Shown here piece by piece: positions 8,800 through 13,582 of a DNA stretch of 37,958 nt. Position 1 is the stretch's first letter; each line of letters starts with the position of its first letter. The stretch is taken from positions 1 to 37,958 of the forward strand of contig JAMXLN010000266.1 in NCBI GenBank assembly GCA_024281145.1, given 5' to 3'. Below the pieces are notes generated by a model that saw only the letters and a program-made list of their open reading frames with translations, ran no database searches and was not told the origin of the DNA. The stretch comes from Hyphomicrobiaceae bacterium. Its GTDB lineage: Bacteria; Pseudomonadota; Alphaproteobacteria; Rhizobiales; Hyphomicrobiaceae. The translations under genes were made by a program, and so were the position numbers.

Positions 8800-9080
8800 G
8801 GGTTCTCCAGGCATGAGCGGCGAAAGGCAGCTCCAACGCTGCGATGGAATGGCCTTATGGGCCAGCACGGCACCTCAAACTGCCAATGTACCCCTCCGAT
8901 TTGTCACGGATTGTTGATCGAGCCCGGGCTGACGAAGATCCGACCTCAATCGATCCCGCGATGGCCGCGTTGCTCGACCCATACGCGCGGAGGCCCGTGG
9001 GGCTGACGCGGGCCTAGCGCTGGCCGCGCCGGCTGGCCCCGTTTGACCGCGGCCGTGCGCGGGGGCAGCAACAAGGTCGG

Positions 9081-9430
9081 TTCTTCGAGACCTCGGCCAA
9101 AGGCGTGCTTTACACCACCGTGAACCGTGCCGACAACAGAAGTTTCCCGAACTCAGTGCACCGAAGGCGGCCTTTGATGCGGGTCAGGCGGTCAGCCGAT
9201 CCGGAGCGGAACGGCGATCACGAGGGTCAAATTCAAGGCTGAGCGCAACGCGGCGGGCGAGCCCGAGAAGGACGCCAACGGCCGCGTCACGAAGGCTCAC
9301 GCTGAGCAACGTGCGCAATGGCGAATGGGAGTGCCGCTCCCGCGACAAAGCCCAATCTCAGGGCCTGCTTCACCTGCCACAAGCTGCCCGACAGGCAGGA
9401 TTTCAGTTGTCCGTCCATGAGATGCGGACG
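9081..9430 (+). pseudogene. Decayed cytochrome P460-like gene
   Basis: Fragments in three frames line up in order with a cytochrome P460-type haem protein. Frame at 9099: SAKGVLYTTVNRADN; frame at 9146: PELSAPKAAFDAGQ; frame at 9202: SGTAITRVKFKAERNA then GEPEKDANGRVTKA; frame at 9302: LSNVRNGEWECRS; frame at 9342: TKPNLRACFTCHKLPDRQDF, which carries the C-x-x-C-H haem c site. Each change of frame needs a small insertion or deletion, so no full protein can be made. No signal peptide or start was recognised upstream (8900-9080 holds nothing clear). Intact family members are periplasmic mono-haem proteins, some oxidising hydroxylamine or binding NO. Family assignment rests on recalled motif order, not a search. 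Confidence 0.6.
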
Positions 9431-9490
9431 GCGAAGTAGGCCTCAGACGCGTCAGATGACGCTTCTGCCCTCACGGGAAGGTGACGCGAC

Positions 9491-9700
9491 TCATGCTGCC
9501 TTGCGCAGGGCCGGCGTGCACAGCGCGTGCGCGATCCGGTCGACGGCAGTGCCCCAGTCGGTTGTCGGTTCGCCCATCAATCCGAAGGCGCGGACGGCAT
9601 CGCCGGGGCTGCCGCCATCGCGGAAGATGCGGGCACACGCTTGGCGCGCGTAGCCCATTGCCTGTTGCCATTGCACGGGATTGATGTGGCGGTGGGGCAT
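9491..9700 (-). CDS. Small hypothetical protein (69 aa)
   Basis: ATG at 9700 gives a 69-residue soluble protein, MPHRHINPVQWQQAMGYARQ at the N-terminus, with no signal peptide or membrane segment. The middle reads CARIFRDGGSPGDAVRAFGL and the C-terminal part DWGTAVDRIAHALC. The composition (ordered mix of hydrophobic and charged residues, predicted helices) looks like a real short alphaproteobacterial protein rather than chance, but I cannot name a family. A weak GAGG lies about 13-16 bases before the start. It lies alone between the P460 remnant and the repeat-rich region. Function unknown. Confidence 0.5.
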   Translation of the reverse strand: MPHRHINPVQWQQAMGYARQACARIFRDGGSPGDAVRAFGLMGEPTTDWGTAVDRIAHALCTPALRKAA

Positions 9701-10104
9701 TCTGGTCTTCGCCTCGCATTTTTGCTCTTAGGGGTTGGGACGCAACGCCACGCGACCTGGAAGGGTGGCAGGCGCATCCAGCAGTACGGCTTCACGACGC
9801 AAAACCCTGTCACGCGAAGCCTTGGGTGACATGCAATGTCGCAAGCTCGATGCGCCTGCCCCAAGGAGGGAGATCGATCACCCTCCAACGCTGGGAACGA
9901 GACTCGACGCAACTTAACGCAACGCTTTTGGTGCTCCTCCTGACATGGCCTGGCCAATCGCCCTGGATCGCCTGTCCTGATATCGCCGGCTGGCACTCAC
10001 TGCGGCCGCCGCCTTGCGCTTCCTGCAAGGCGGGCGAGCCGCCCGGCGATACGCGTGCACCTTTGCGCCAGGGCGGAGCGCCGCAACACTTGCATGGCGG
10101 GGGC

Positions 10105-10248
10105 CAATGCAACTCTGGGGGACAACACAACTCTGGAGGACAACGCAACACTTGGGGCCAACGCAACCCTGGAGGCCAACGCAACTCTTGGGGCCAACGC
10201 AACTCTTGGAGCCAACGCAACTCTTGGAGCCAACGCAACTCTGGGGGA
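10105..10248. repeat. 18-bp minisatellite, eight units
   Basis: Eight consecutive units of exactly 18 bp with consensus CAACGCAACTCTTGGGGC start at 10105, 10123, 10141, 10159, 10177, 10195, 10213 and 10231; a partial unit follows. Central units differ by one or two bases, the outer ones by more (for example CAATGC, CAACAC), the pattern expected of an array homogenised from its middle. Because 18 is divisible by three every frame stays open, giving NATLGA or TQLLGP hexapeptides on the plus strand and VALAPR on the minus strand; no ribosome-binding site supports translation. Confidence 0.92.
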
Positions 10249-10533
10249 CGCAACTGAAGGCCCAATGAGGCGATACGCGGGAACACCTGCTCTTTGATAC
10301 GCAACCGAACGCGAACACACCGACGCAGGAGCCTCAAGACGTGTACGCAGCTGACGCAACTGGGACGCAACAGAAGACGGATGGCGAGACGCAACAGAAG
10401 ACGGATTGAGCATCGAAGACTCAACGCGATGTGACCGATAAGACTCAACGCAAGATAACTCAGCAACGCTTGGAACTTTCATAGTGGGAAAACGCCGGAA
10501 CGAAGATTTTAGGTCGCGTTGGCCGACTAGAAC

Positions 10534-10706
10534 TGTGGATAACTGCCTAAGTTCCTGGCCTGTAAATAAGACTTGATCGCGCCCGTGGACTGACACTTTG
10601 ACCCCACTCGTGTTCTCTTTGCGTTCTCGCGAGTTAATCGTCGTGGTGGGGCAACACGAAGGCGCAAAATGGGCGCTTACAAGATAATCTGCTTGACTGT
10701 GGATGA
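10534..10706 (+). promoter_or_regulatory. Three DnaA-box-like nonamers in one orientation
   Basis: TGTGGATAA at 10534-10542 is the exact complement of the consensus DnaA box TTATCCACA. TGTGGATGA at 10698-10706 differs at one position and TGTAAATAA at 10561-10569 at two. All three point the same way, in the most AT-rich part of a gene-free stretch. They could mark a DnaA-regulated or origin-like site, but none of the genes that usually flank alphaproteobacterial oriC are nearby, so chance remains likely. Confidence 0.3.
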
Positions 10707-10785
10707 ACGACAGCGCGCGGCCTGATTTGCGCCGCGGCAGGGAGGCCAACGCATGCCGGCCAAACATCGGCTCGTCATGCTGCGG

Positions 10786-11130
10786 TCAGGTGCGGCTGCG
10801 TTTCCTGACCATGTAGCTATCGTAGGTCACTTCGCAAACCTGGTGCCACGCGTACTGCTCGTCGCGAAACGCCGACACCGATTCGTAGAGCTTCTTGAAG
10901 ATGGGGTTCTTGTCGGCGGCGGCACCGACTTCTTCAACGAGCTTTACACCTCTTACAACCGTTCGGCATCGGCGCAGATGGGGCGGCTGGTTTCGCGCCG
11001 GCGCCATAGAGCGTGTCGCGGTTCTTGGGAAACGAGGTCGCCAAGCGCCAGCGCAGCGTCGGCGCCGATTGGGCGATGGCCGGGGCCGCCACCGTCGTGG
11101 TTACCAGACCGATTGCTGCGCCTTGCAGAA
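10786..11130 (-). pseudogene. Remnant of a TRAP transporter substrate-binding protein (DctP type)
   Basis: Both ends of a periplasmic binding protein survive with the middle gone. The upstream part (minus strand, about 11127 down to 10990) reads FLQGAAIGLVTTTVAAPAIA, an exported-protein leader, followed by QSAPTLRWRLATSFPKNRDT and LYGAGA, the usual mature N-terminus. The downstream part, in another frame, reads VKLVEEVGAAADKNPIFKKL, then YESVSAFRDEQYAWHQVCEV and TYDSYMVRKRSRT with a stop at 10786, a typical C-terminus. A family member is about 360 residues; fewer than 110 remain, so roughly 750-800 bp have been deleted and the join is out of frame. No DctQ or DctM membrane genes are nearby. 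Confidence 0.75.
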
Positions 11131-11179
11131 ATTGTCAGACAACGGTCCGCTCAGTGCCACGCTCACGCTTGAGCCTGCG

Positions 11180-13582
11180 CTATTGGTTTGCCAGGGCGCC
11201 GGGAGTGCGCCTCAGATCCACGTTAAGTCGCAATGCCGTCGCCTGCTCGCCCAGCCGCGCGCGGTAGATTTGAATGTTGGAGAGCACCTTCTGGACGTAT
11301 TCGCGCGTCTCCTCGAAGGGGATGCGGTGGATCCAGTCGATGGGATCGTCCTTGGCATCGCGCGGATCGCCGAACTCCTTGATCCATTCGCGCGCCCGGC
11401 CAGGTCCGGCATTGTAGCCCGCCAAGGTCAGCACGTAGGATCCAGCGAACTCGTCCATGCGGTCGGAGATGTAGGCGCTGCCCATCATTGTATTGTAGGC
11501 CGGGTCCTTCATGAGCCGGGGAATGTCGCATGTGATCTTGTAGTCGTGGCATACGTGCTTGGCTGTGACCGGCATGACCTGCAGGAGCCCGCGGGCGCCC
11601 GCACCCGACAAGGTAAGAGAATCGAATTCGCTTTCCTGGCGGGCGATACCGAGGATGAAGGCGGGCTCCGGCGGCTTTCTGAGCGGCGTGTAGGCCGGTA
11701 ATGAGTGTATGGGATAGGCGTAATAGACGAGGTTCAGGCCCCGTGCGATGGCGCTCTTGCCAATGCGCAGGGCGGTCTGTGTGTCACCCAACGCCTCGGC
11801 GAGGTGGGCCAGCATGGCCACCTCCGCCTCGCTCTTGAGGGTGTTGCGAAGGTGATAGAGGAAGGCACGCGAAAGGCTGACATCGAGGCCCGCCTTGCGC
11901 ACGATGACGGCAGCCTGCACGGCATCTGAGCCGTTGAAAGAGGTCAACTCTTCCGGCGTGGGCGTTGCTGGTGGCAGGATCCTGAGCTCGCGCGCGTTGG
12001 CATCGAGCTTGAGCCGGGCAAGCTGGCCGTGGAAGGTATCGAAATAGGCCGAGGCCGCCTGGTAGTGCTCCTTGGCCTTCGCCTCATCACCCAGCGCCTC
12101 ATAGGTCCGCCCAAGCCAATAGCCAGCCTTGGCGTGGCTCAGCGGACCATCGGCCGCCTCGGCCAGCGTTTGAAAATGGCCGAGCGCCAGCTTGGGATCG
12201 CCCAACTGCCGGAGCGCCAACCATCCGGCCAGGAACGCGGCATCCTTCGTCGCATTGACCGAGAGGGCACCGGGGTTGCGCACGAGCTCGTAGGCCGTTT
12301 TGGGCTTGCCAACCTTTAGCGCTGCATAGGCATTGGTGCGCCGTTCTTCCCACCAGCCGTCCGGCTTCACGAGCAGGGACGACTCGGGCTCGGCGAGCAG
12401 GATCTTCCAGGCTTCCGCCTCCTTCTTCTGGCGGCGCAGGGCCTGCGCGCGCTGCACGGCAAGGCCCCAGTCTTGGTTTGCGGTGGGCAACTTGGAAAGG
12501 AGCTGTTCGGAGTTCTTGGCGCGCAGGAACACCGCAAGGCGTGCTTCGGCCGCCCTTTTCTCGTCTGGGGACAGCAGGGGGATCAGGCGGCGAATGACGG
12601 CTGCGCGTTCGTTGCGCTCCCCCTGCCAGCGGCTATCGTTGAAGAGGAGCCGGTCAAGGCGGCGCTTATGGTCGGCTTCGCTCAGCAACGGGCCCACGCG
12701 CCTCAGAAAGGCGGCCTCGAGGCCGGCCGGGATCTTGAGCTCGATCCAAGCCTTTTGCGCCAGGGCCTTGGCCATCTCCTGCGCCTTCGGATCGCCATGG
12801 TCGGCGACATAGGCGCTTGCCAGCGCGGCGTACCCGACGGCGGTTTGCGGCTTGTTGCTGGCGAAGAAGGCTTTGATCTCGGCCGGGCTTGCGGAACTGT
12901 TGAACAGCGCCTCCTCGGCGCGCTGGATGAGCAGGCTCCGGTCCGGCCAGGCCGCATTGGCATCGAGGAAGGCACGAACCTCAGACGCCGTCCCATAGCC
13001 GCCGCGATAGAGGTACCAATCGACGAGCTTGCGCGCGGCCGGGTCGGAGAGCTTGTCGCGCCGCGATTTAGCCTCCGCCAGTCGTCCACCACCCGCGGCG
13101 GCCATGGCTTCGCGTAGTGCGGAAGCGTCCGCAGTGGAAAGGGCATGGTCACGGACGGGCTGGATGGCGATGTCATAGCGGGCCACGTGCTGGGCTTCCT
13201 CGGCCATCGGCTGCGTCAGCACGGGCGCCTGCGGCGCGGAGGCGGGCATGGCAGTGGACTCGCGCGCCGCTTGCGCGTGTGGGCTTTTGGCTCCCGACTT
13301 GGCTCCGGACTTGGCTCCGGGCTGAGCTCCGGGCTTGGCTCCGGGCTTAGCTCCGGACCTGGTCCCGGATTGGGTCCCGGATTGGGCCCCGGATTGGGCC
13401 ATGGACTGAGCTCGGGGGTGGGTTTTGATTCGGGGCTCGATTGTCGACATGCTCGACGGCCCTTTGGCCCAATTGGGCGCAGCGGGCGCATCTTGGACCG
13501 CCGTGGATGCCAAGAGCTGCTGACCGGCCGCCGCCAGCGCGAGCAGGATGCATGGGAGCAGGGTCTTCAGAATCGATCGCAT
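11180..13582 (-). CDS. slt: Soluble lytic murein transglycosylase
   Basis: Periplasmic enzyme that cleaves the MurNAc-GlcNAc bond of peptidoglycan to a 1,6-anhydro product. The ATG at 13582 gives an 800-residue protein with a signal peptide (MRSILKTLLPCILLALAAAG). Next comes a low-complexity linker of tetrapeptide repeats (SGAK, PGAK, SGTQ), then a long alpha-helical superhelix typical of Slt70 (residues about 150-620), then the C-terminal catalytic domain: ILGIARQESEFDS with the catalytic glutamate, GARGLLQVMPVTAKHV, and LAGYNAGPGRAREW. The C-terminus extends about 50 residues beyond. A longer reading from 13864 lacks family similarity and is not used. The gene is divergent from dapA across a 285-bp gap, as in related genomes. 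Confidence 0.93.
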   Translation of the reverse strand: MRSILKTLLPCILLALAAAGQQLLASTAVQDAPAAPNWAKGPSSMSTIEPRIKTHPRAQSMAQSGAQSGTQSGTRSGAKPGAKPGAQPGAKSGAKSGAKSPHAQAARESTAMPASAPQAPVLTQPMAEEAQHVARYDIAIQPVRDHALSTADASALREAMAAAGGGRLAEAKSRRDKLSDPAARKLVDWYLYRGGYGTASEVRAFLDANAAWPDRSLLIQRAEEALFNSSASPAEIKAFFASNKPQTAVGYAALASAYVADHGDPKAQEMAKALAQKAWIELKIPAGLEAAFLRRVGPLLSEADHKRRLDRLLFNDSRWQGERNERAAVIRRLIPLLSPDEKRAAEARLAVFLRAKNSEQLLSKLPTANQDWGLAVQRAQALRRQKKEAEAWKILLAEPESSLLVKPDGWWEERRTNAYAALKVGKPKTAYELVRNPGALSVNATKDAAFLAGWLALRQLGDPKLALGHFQTLAEAADGPLSHAKAGYWLGRTYEALGDEAKAKEHYQAASAYFDTFHGQLARLKLDANARELRILPPATPTPEELTSFNGSDAVQAAVIVRKAGLDVSLSRAFLYHLRNTLKSEAEVAMLAHLAEALGDTQTALRIGKSAIARGLNLVYYAYPIHSLPAYTPLRKPPEPAFILGIARQESEFDSLTLSGAGARGLLQVMPVTAKHVCHDYKITCDIPRLMKDPAYNTMMGSAYISDRMDEFAGSYVLTLAGYNAGPGRAREWIKEFGDPRDAKDDPIDWIHRIPFEETREYVQKVLSNIQIYRARLGEQATALRLNVDLRRTPGALANQ
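13286..13401. repeat. 12-bp repeat array inside slt
   Basis: About nine or ten degenerate 12-bp units, consensus TTGGCTCCGGAC on the plus strand, encode a (S/P)-G-(A/T)-(K/Q) tetrapeptide array just after the signal peptide. Lysine-bearing units lie toward the C-terminal side and glutamine-bearing ones toward the N-terminal side. It keeps frame and probably forms a flexible, basic, extended linker. Confidence 0.85.

Follow-up and report, generated by a model that had tools for sequence, protein, structure and literature searches.

Does a dense, one-stranded cluster of the heptamer ACGCAAC mark a stray repeat, or a word that was favoured for its own sake? The window analysed here is a stretch of 37,958 nucleotides from a Hyphomicrobiaceae draft genome, and its positions 9740–10460 carry 14 exact copies on the + strand and none on the other. 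Dinucleotide shuffles of this segment (n=2000) gave a mean of 0.26 copies and a maximum of 3, and outside an 18-bp tandem array seven copies are seen where the shuffles predict 0.15. The statement of a preliminary description that at least 13 one-stranded copies in 0.7 kb lie far above chance is borne out by these counts. That description had named genome-wide abundance of the heptamer as something that could make the density ordinary; it does not, since the 4.44 Mb draft genome holds 519 copies (269+250), below the 654 (329+325) of a backward-read control, and simple arithmetic from the genome-wide rate predicts about 0.08 copies per 0.72 kb.

The same counts bear on the idea of an origin-like or recombination-hotspot DNA element, in which the repeats would be iterons accompanying a TTATCCACA box, or a Chi-like polar word. 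A perfect DnaA-box-like TTATCCACA is present at 10534–10542 on the minus strand, between a LexA-type box and the motif region, the repeats are direct, and GC content dips to 0.53. However, near-boxes in the window are no more common than chance predicts (2 versus 2.53 expected), the repeats have no single spacing, and ACGCAAC does not display the genome-wide over-representation of Chi-like or KOPS-like words. An origin of replication was rejected because TTATCCACA is at chance level in the window, and a Chi-like word because the heptamer is not enriched genome-wide; the idea as a whole is very improbable. The nonamer TTATCCACA also occurs at the locus of genomes G006 and G002.

The repeat stretch, about 1.1 kb long, lies between a small minus-strand frame, ORF3, and a minus-strand gene for a DctP-type (TRAP transporter) solute-binding protein. 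This gene is whole in the close relative G006 (L037, 904–1983, minus strand; Pfam DctP, E 3.3e-54) and shortened and broken in the window (10789–11150, minus strand), where its pieces gave no Pfam match. A DNA search with positions 9690–10790 over 103 family genomes found matches in seven, including the window's own; the match and dapA are on different contigs in G001, G002, G004 and G005 and on the same contig in G006. Around the DNA matches at five loci (L051–L055), one strand has 3 to 9 copies of ACGCAAC/GTTGCGT and the opposite strand has none, and in L051–L054 ORF3 adjoins the motif stretch. Since ORF3 accompanies the one-stranded motif in relatives, we assign the feature to the ORF3 locus and read it on the minus strand, as GTTGCGT. 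The minus-strand order is LexA-type box, ORF1, ORF2 (not recognised in the window), folded RNA and ORF3 (Table 1).

Table 1. Features of the locus, in coordinates of the window.
Feature	Position	Strand	Basis
ORF3, conserved frame of 69 aa with CARIFRDGG core and three predicted helices	9491..9700	-	translation, alignment
14 exact GTTGCGT copies (ACGCAAC on +)	span 9740..10395	-	exact word count
GTTGCGT copies, lowest + coordinates	9740, 9907, 9917, 10143, 10161, 10179, 10197, 10215, 10233, 10248, 10299, 10354, 10365, 10389		
Hairpin 1 (HP1), structured RNA, long closing stem and inner hairpin, GGTNNNGCGTNG-type loop	9767..9860	-	covariation
ORF1, 199 aa, GTG start 10596 (inferred), low-complexity S/V/A/L/R-rich, C-terminal motif SPRVALAPAMQVLRRSALAQRCTRIAGRLARLA	9997..10596	-	translation
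Hairpin 2 (HP2), inside ORF1, GCGU in apical part	10033..10082	-	alignment, weaker than HP1
18-bp minisatellite of 8.3 imperfect copies, read within ORF1 as in-frame PRVALA repeats	10099..10247	-	TRF, translation, unit comparison
LexA-type (SOS) box GAACGCAAAGAGAAC (GAACN7GAAC), 15 nt upstream of proposed ORF1 start	10612..10626	-	pattern match and conservation

An alignment search of genome contigs with ORF3 yielded 25 loci, including Filomicrobium insigne, Hyphomicrobium facile and many MAGs, most of the latter titled Hyphomicrobiaceae or Hyphomicrobium and a few otherwise. These 25, together with the window and G006 and minus L081 (only 234 nt of sequence upstream of its ORF3 match), form a set of 26 loci that are related by descent, and counts over them are not independent events; the ORF1 and codon counts were made without the duplicates L086, L088, L095 and L102. 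Of 27 sources, 20 have a DsbB relative and 16 an HNH relative, located anywhere in the stretch and not always next door (in L065, Pfam DsbB 1.2e-30 and HNH_5 3.9e-13). Neither was found in the window, and the locus adjoins other genes in the window's genome (G000) and G006. A separate search for triple clusters of the word matched 21 of 36 family genomes and none of 24 others, with backward-control matches in 2 of 60 genomes (four in the window's genome, one in G116); the 21 of 36 is not a count of the ORF3 locus, as at least six of the matches listed (L083, L085, L090, L094, L096 and L111) lie elsewhere or lack strand bias. The heptamer is no stray repeat: the same word fills the matching stretch, on the same strand, in many related bacteria.

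In about 1 kb upstream of ORF3 the 26 loci hold 151 copies of GTTGCGT, all of them on the ORF3 strand, and every locus has at least one. Counted in 100-bp bins over 25 loci (G006 left out), GCGT:ACGC reaches 123:5 at -600 and is roughly balanced in both flanks; the full heptamer is absent from either strand of about 25 kb of downstream flank and occurs 3 and 2 times on the two strands upstream. One-base variants show that any base is accepted at position 3 (T 151, A 40, G 36, C 33), that position 5 is C or A (151, 28) and that the remaining positions are nearly fixed, and the bases flanking the word carry little information. The resulting consensus, GTN G(C/A) GT, is found 302 times on the transcript strand versus 3 on the other across the 26 loci. 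The suggestion that the motif itself was favoured, and not slippage only, is upheld by its presence on one strand of the same locus in all 26 cases and by a tolerance pattern like that of a binding site. On this distribution the motif is old at the locus and predates the array.

Could slippage and a local mutational bias nevertheless have produced the copies neutrally, by functionless multiplication of short seeds? Slippage typically yields arrays like the 18-bp one, which did not turn up in the relatives searched, and tracts such as GAGTTGAGTTGAGTT in L061 also fit this view. Neutral slippage would not be expected to leave 151 copies on one strand and 0 on the other, to hold their extent fixed between box and ORF3 or to conserve hairpins, and the spacing between copies is irregular, from 5 nt to more than 100 nt. 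As an account of the whole locus it appears decidedly improbable.

For the array, the evidence reads differently. TRF reports period 18, 8.3 copies and 86% matches; only two neighbouring units are identical in the register compared, and the exact heptamer stands in six in-register units (10143–10239) and a seventh time 15 bp further on, at 10248, so the array is not the exact eight-unit one first described. The last part of its PRVALA translation reads SPRVALAPAMQVLRR, and at the same site G006 has a single PRVALA copy, SPRVALAPALQSLRR. This fits the earlier proposal of seeds from which the array grew. Absence from all relatives had been set out as a point against the feature: the array itself is indeed missing from the relatives searched, G006 included, but the motif is kept at the same locus. 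From this comparison we conclude that the array grew by slippage, in frame, from one motif-bearing PRVALA segment of ORF1; it would be a recent expansion of one motif site that adds sites and leaves ORF1 unbroken, and an illustration of a favoured seed expanding into a minisatellite. The likeness to minisatellites and VNTRs, head-to-tail arrays of one unit, extends to 10099–10247 only, whereas the scattered, one-stranded, conserved copies are not accounted for by such repeats.

Much of the motif lies within ORF1. A profile of its C-terminal motif (SPKxVLxxxFxxLRRAAxxxKxxRIAxRLA), with seeds drawn from some of the same loci searched, recognises, at a score of at least 12 bits, a sense ORF in 27 of 38 non-duplicate loci; no antisense match scored that high. 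The other two sense-strand frames contain 109 and 147 stops versus 118 expected; the ORF1 frame is open partly by choice of open fragments, and its runs are still longer than composition predicts. Over 21 loci, pN/pS is 0.83 in frame versus 0.81 to 1.15 in the other five frames, and GC by codon position is flat (0.587/0.587/0.610) versus 0.678/0.529/0.735 in ORF3. These values argue for weak protein constraint on ORF1, and with a pN/pS so close to that of the other frames its standing as coding sequence rests on the long open frame. ORF1 of the window had no Pfam match at E 1 and a weak NCBIfam best of E 0.04, and its assignment to a known domain was dropped. A left-handed beta-helix (hexapeptide, NATLGA repeats), seen by eye in a + strand frame, was likewise dropped, the conserved ORFs being on the minus strand; the + strand ORF over the array gave no Pfam match. 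For ORF2, whose motif WRxLSDVVGxVL is present in many loci, a pN/pS of 0.67 versus 0.70 to 1.60 in other frames (19 loci) weakly favours coding.

It is distinctly unlikely that GTTGCGT is a by-product of a low-complexity ORF1 protein that needs S-V-A-S or Q-L-R-type repeats. Such a protein would explain why, in the 27 loci where ORF1 is recognised, a long frame stays open and stops in the other frames are near expectation (with the choice of open fragments contributing), why the array keeps the frame, and why 50 and 51 of the 112 copies within ORF1 fall in the VA and LR frames. Yet synonymous resampling yields 24.8 copies instead of 112 (500 runs, maximum 38) and codon permutation 6.0, the third frame is used 11 times, and protein constraint is weak by the measures above. 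Moreover, the 22 intervals after ORF1 contain another 29 copies versus 2.07 in shuffles, with none on the opposite strand. The excess over synonymous expectation, the use of all three frames and the copies after ORF1 together indicate that GTTGCGT was favoured beyond what the protein requires.

Chance alone predicts one GAACN7GAAC in the window and exactly one is present, so the weight of the LexA-type box rests on its conservation. In 13 of 26 loci such a box lies within 400 nt 5' of the first GTTGCGT, at a distance of 103–250 nt; boxes are about 48 times as frequent there as in the rest of the loci. In the other 13 it was not found in this interval, and nine of these are Hyphomicrobium or Hyphomicrobium-like (six so titled). 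Filomicrobium insigne (L065) is among the loci with a box, and at L076 of Hyphomicrobium facile DSM 1565 none of canonical form was found. The lexA promoters of six of six genomes, including those of the window and H. facile, contain GAACN7GAAC, which we take as a sign of autoregulation and of the genome's own LexA using this box, versus GAACN7GTAC, seen by eye, at the recA promoters of six of six (L112–L117). The box at the promoter, in the window and in half of the loci, resembles promoters of the alphaproteobacterial LexA regulon, for which Table 5 of PMC2248561 gives GAACn7GAAC, with ttggAACacatagagAACaga as predicted; the difference is that at this locus we infer LexA control from the box. 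SOS control is likely at the 13 box-bearing loci. A small-ORF/RNA locus as LexA target was not reported among the matches listed in a search of the open literature. At the 13 loci with a box, GTTGCGT is absent from the 500 nt before it and occurs 96 times from box to ORF3. A motif confined to one strand between box and ORF3 points to the transcript and not to a plain DNA-binding site.

Within this interval HP1 displays the compensatory changes of a conserved structured RNA, more than either shuffled or slid controls do. Across the 21 loci aligned, standard pairs make up 95.0% of pair cells, and there are 75 double-change cells versus 26.8 in shuffles (0 of 500 as high) and 9–17 in slid controls. 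G-U cells outnumber A-C cells 54 versus 6, which identifies the transcript (minus) strand as the pairing strand; folded alone, HP1 of the window gives z -2.41 on the minus and -3.51 on the plus strand, so that the minus strand is not favoured. The aligned loci are 21 of 24 picks (the near-duplicates L078, L079 and L080 were left out), made with a pattern that demanded GCGT in the loop and matched 24 of 27 loci, not L073, L081 or G006. The invariance of GCGT in the loop of A3 is therefore partly by selection, but the loop also has GCGT in 17 of 17 hairpins picked earlier without that rule, and in 15 of 15 non-window matches and 18 order-genome matches of the model R1, itself trained on a GCGT loop.

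With R1, part of whose strand difference is built in, HP1 was recovered from 16 of 18 sources, of which 12 are non-duplicate loci outside the training rows; L073 is also found, and the two misses are L037, where the contig begins inside HP1, and L081, where the sequence ends close to ORF3. Over 297 genomes of the order it matched 18, once each, four of them training rows, under filters so strict that misses mean little. Other families account for six matches, including G126 (training row L066), and five of the six have ORF3 downstream and a dsbB-like frame upstream, four of the five being non-training; no such pair was recognised at the sixth, L149. The 900 nt upstream of the six have GCGT:ACGC of 8:0, 16:2, 15:4, 14:6, 15:1 and 22:3. 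HP1 as a known RNA was rejected, since Rfam at gathering score gave no match in the window or in the loci of 18 relatives; a permissive search gave two sub-threshold matches in 9650–10700 (E 0.73, 0.89) and none in L071. For HP2, 18 of 22 loci were aligned (L070 and L075, with arms folding in another register, and the near-duplicates L078 and L079 were left out). Its outer helix has 96.1% of cells paired, with double changes in 3 of 10 pairs, amounting to 14 versus 6.7 shuffled (3 of 500 as high), a value that one slid control also reaches.

These results bear on the suggestion that the motif is a binding site, which stands in so far as the tolerance pattern resembles one, although strandedness and confinement between box and ORF3 favour the transcript. 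As a polar site in DNA, GTTGCGT would be bound by a protein that silences or organises the locus, the strand bias reflecting orientation to the promoter. The sequence-specific tolerance with little flank information would suit such a site, as would predicted folds in which the motif is not clearly single-stranded: the unpaired measure is 0.304 at motif sites versus 0.273 for 7-mers of the same composition (p 0.018) and versus 0.349 for all 7-mers with four G or C. A DNA site does not, however, explain why copies begin only after the box or why the GCGT core recurs in the loops of conserved hairpins, and the irregular spacing also counts against it. We consider it unlikely.

An RNA-level signal is favoured by the one-strandedness of the motif, its start after the box, its stop at ORF3, its occurrence in any frame and the presence of GCGT in covarying loops. 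Our preferred reading, put forward tentatively and at somewhat under even confidence, is that this conserved minus-strand locus forms a multivalent recognition platform, made of GUUGCGU sites and GCGU loops, that controls the ORF1–ORF3 message after DNA damage. The LexA-type box would precede a transcript that encodes ORF1, in many relatives also ORF2, folds HP1 and ends in ORF3. Between box and ORF3 start it would be packed with copies of the motif acting in RNA, which together with the GCGU loops of HP1 and HP2 may be recognised by one RNA-binding protein or base-pairing RNA. Probably there are many weak sites for one factor and a structured site before ORF3, and the factor would control translation or stability of the message once damage has occurred.

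By analogy, the closest kind of known system would be leader RNAs with many short protein-binding words. The trp leader RNA bound by TRAP contains many copies of a very short word that are read as a multivalent site, and the present locus is alike in the manifold repetition of one short word along the transcribed leader strand. It differs in that its word is the 7-nt GTN G(C/A) GT, partly inside ORFs and without the regular short spacing of TRAP sites, in that a structured element and a LexA-type box are added, and in that no TRAP-like binder was identified. Titrating RNAs of the CsrB/RsmZ type show a repeated short core, with GGA motifs, in hairpin loops; here too a short repeated core is found in hairpin loops, whereas that core is GCGU and the RNA is embedded in ORFs, ahead of ORF3. 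HP1, ORF1 and ORF3 are not covered by any Rfam, Pfam or NCBIfam family over cut-off, and in the literature none of the matches listed for GTTGCGT was relevant by title, while whole-word ACGCAAC gave an unrelated match only.

With slightly less assurance than the platform itself, we suggest a new post-transcriptional control system of Hyphomicrobiaceae and relatives, comprising a damage-controlled message, a translated leader dense with the motif in any frame, the HP1 family, a conserved small protein and a dedicated RNA-binding factor. The locus pairs a new covariation-supported RNA element with a short word kept dense on one strand in coding and noncoding sequence alike. Should the word serve as a recognition site, a simple bait ought to suffice to find its binder, and an RNA layer would be added to the DNA-damage response of environmental bacteria.

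ORF3 itself might conceivably be the binder of the motif. Its modelled structure of three helices has a mean pLDDT of 84.9, and its family matches are weak and helix-turn-helix-like. Pfam gave no match over cut-off for the 21 ORF3s tried (HTH_23, best E 0.003, in two and DUF732 in four), a phage transcriptional-repressor family matched one of three weakly (E 0.002), and the best E in a PDB sequence search was 0.94. With a Foldseek best of E 1.4 and a VIA-align best of Z 3.5 over 42 chains, ORF3 cannot be placed in a fold family, and the absence of a match excludes nothing.

Several minor features were noted. On the + strand at 9060–9440 the window has what look by eye like the remains of a small gene of heme or cytochrome type, its frames interrupted, for which no family match was obtained, and at 13287–13398 an imperfect 12-bp tandem repeat lies inside an SLT-domain gene. 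The window's genome contains a second tandem tract with GTTGCGT at a different locus (L085, G000:C161:1592-1658), near a frame that looks ClpB-like by eye. In a related genome a second one-stranded cluster holds five copies of GTTGCGT (L111, G088:C1:1577730-1577824); there is no dsbB among its five longest frames, and it is possibly another transcript with the word.
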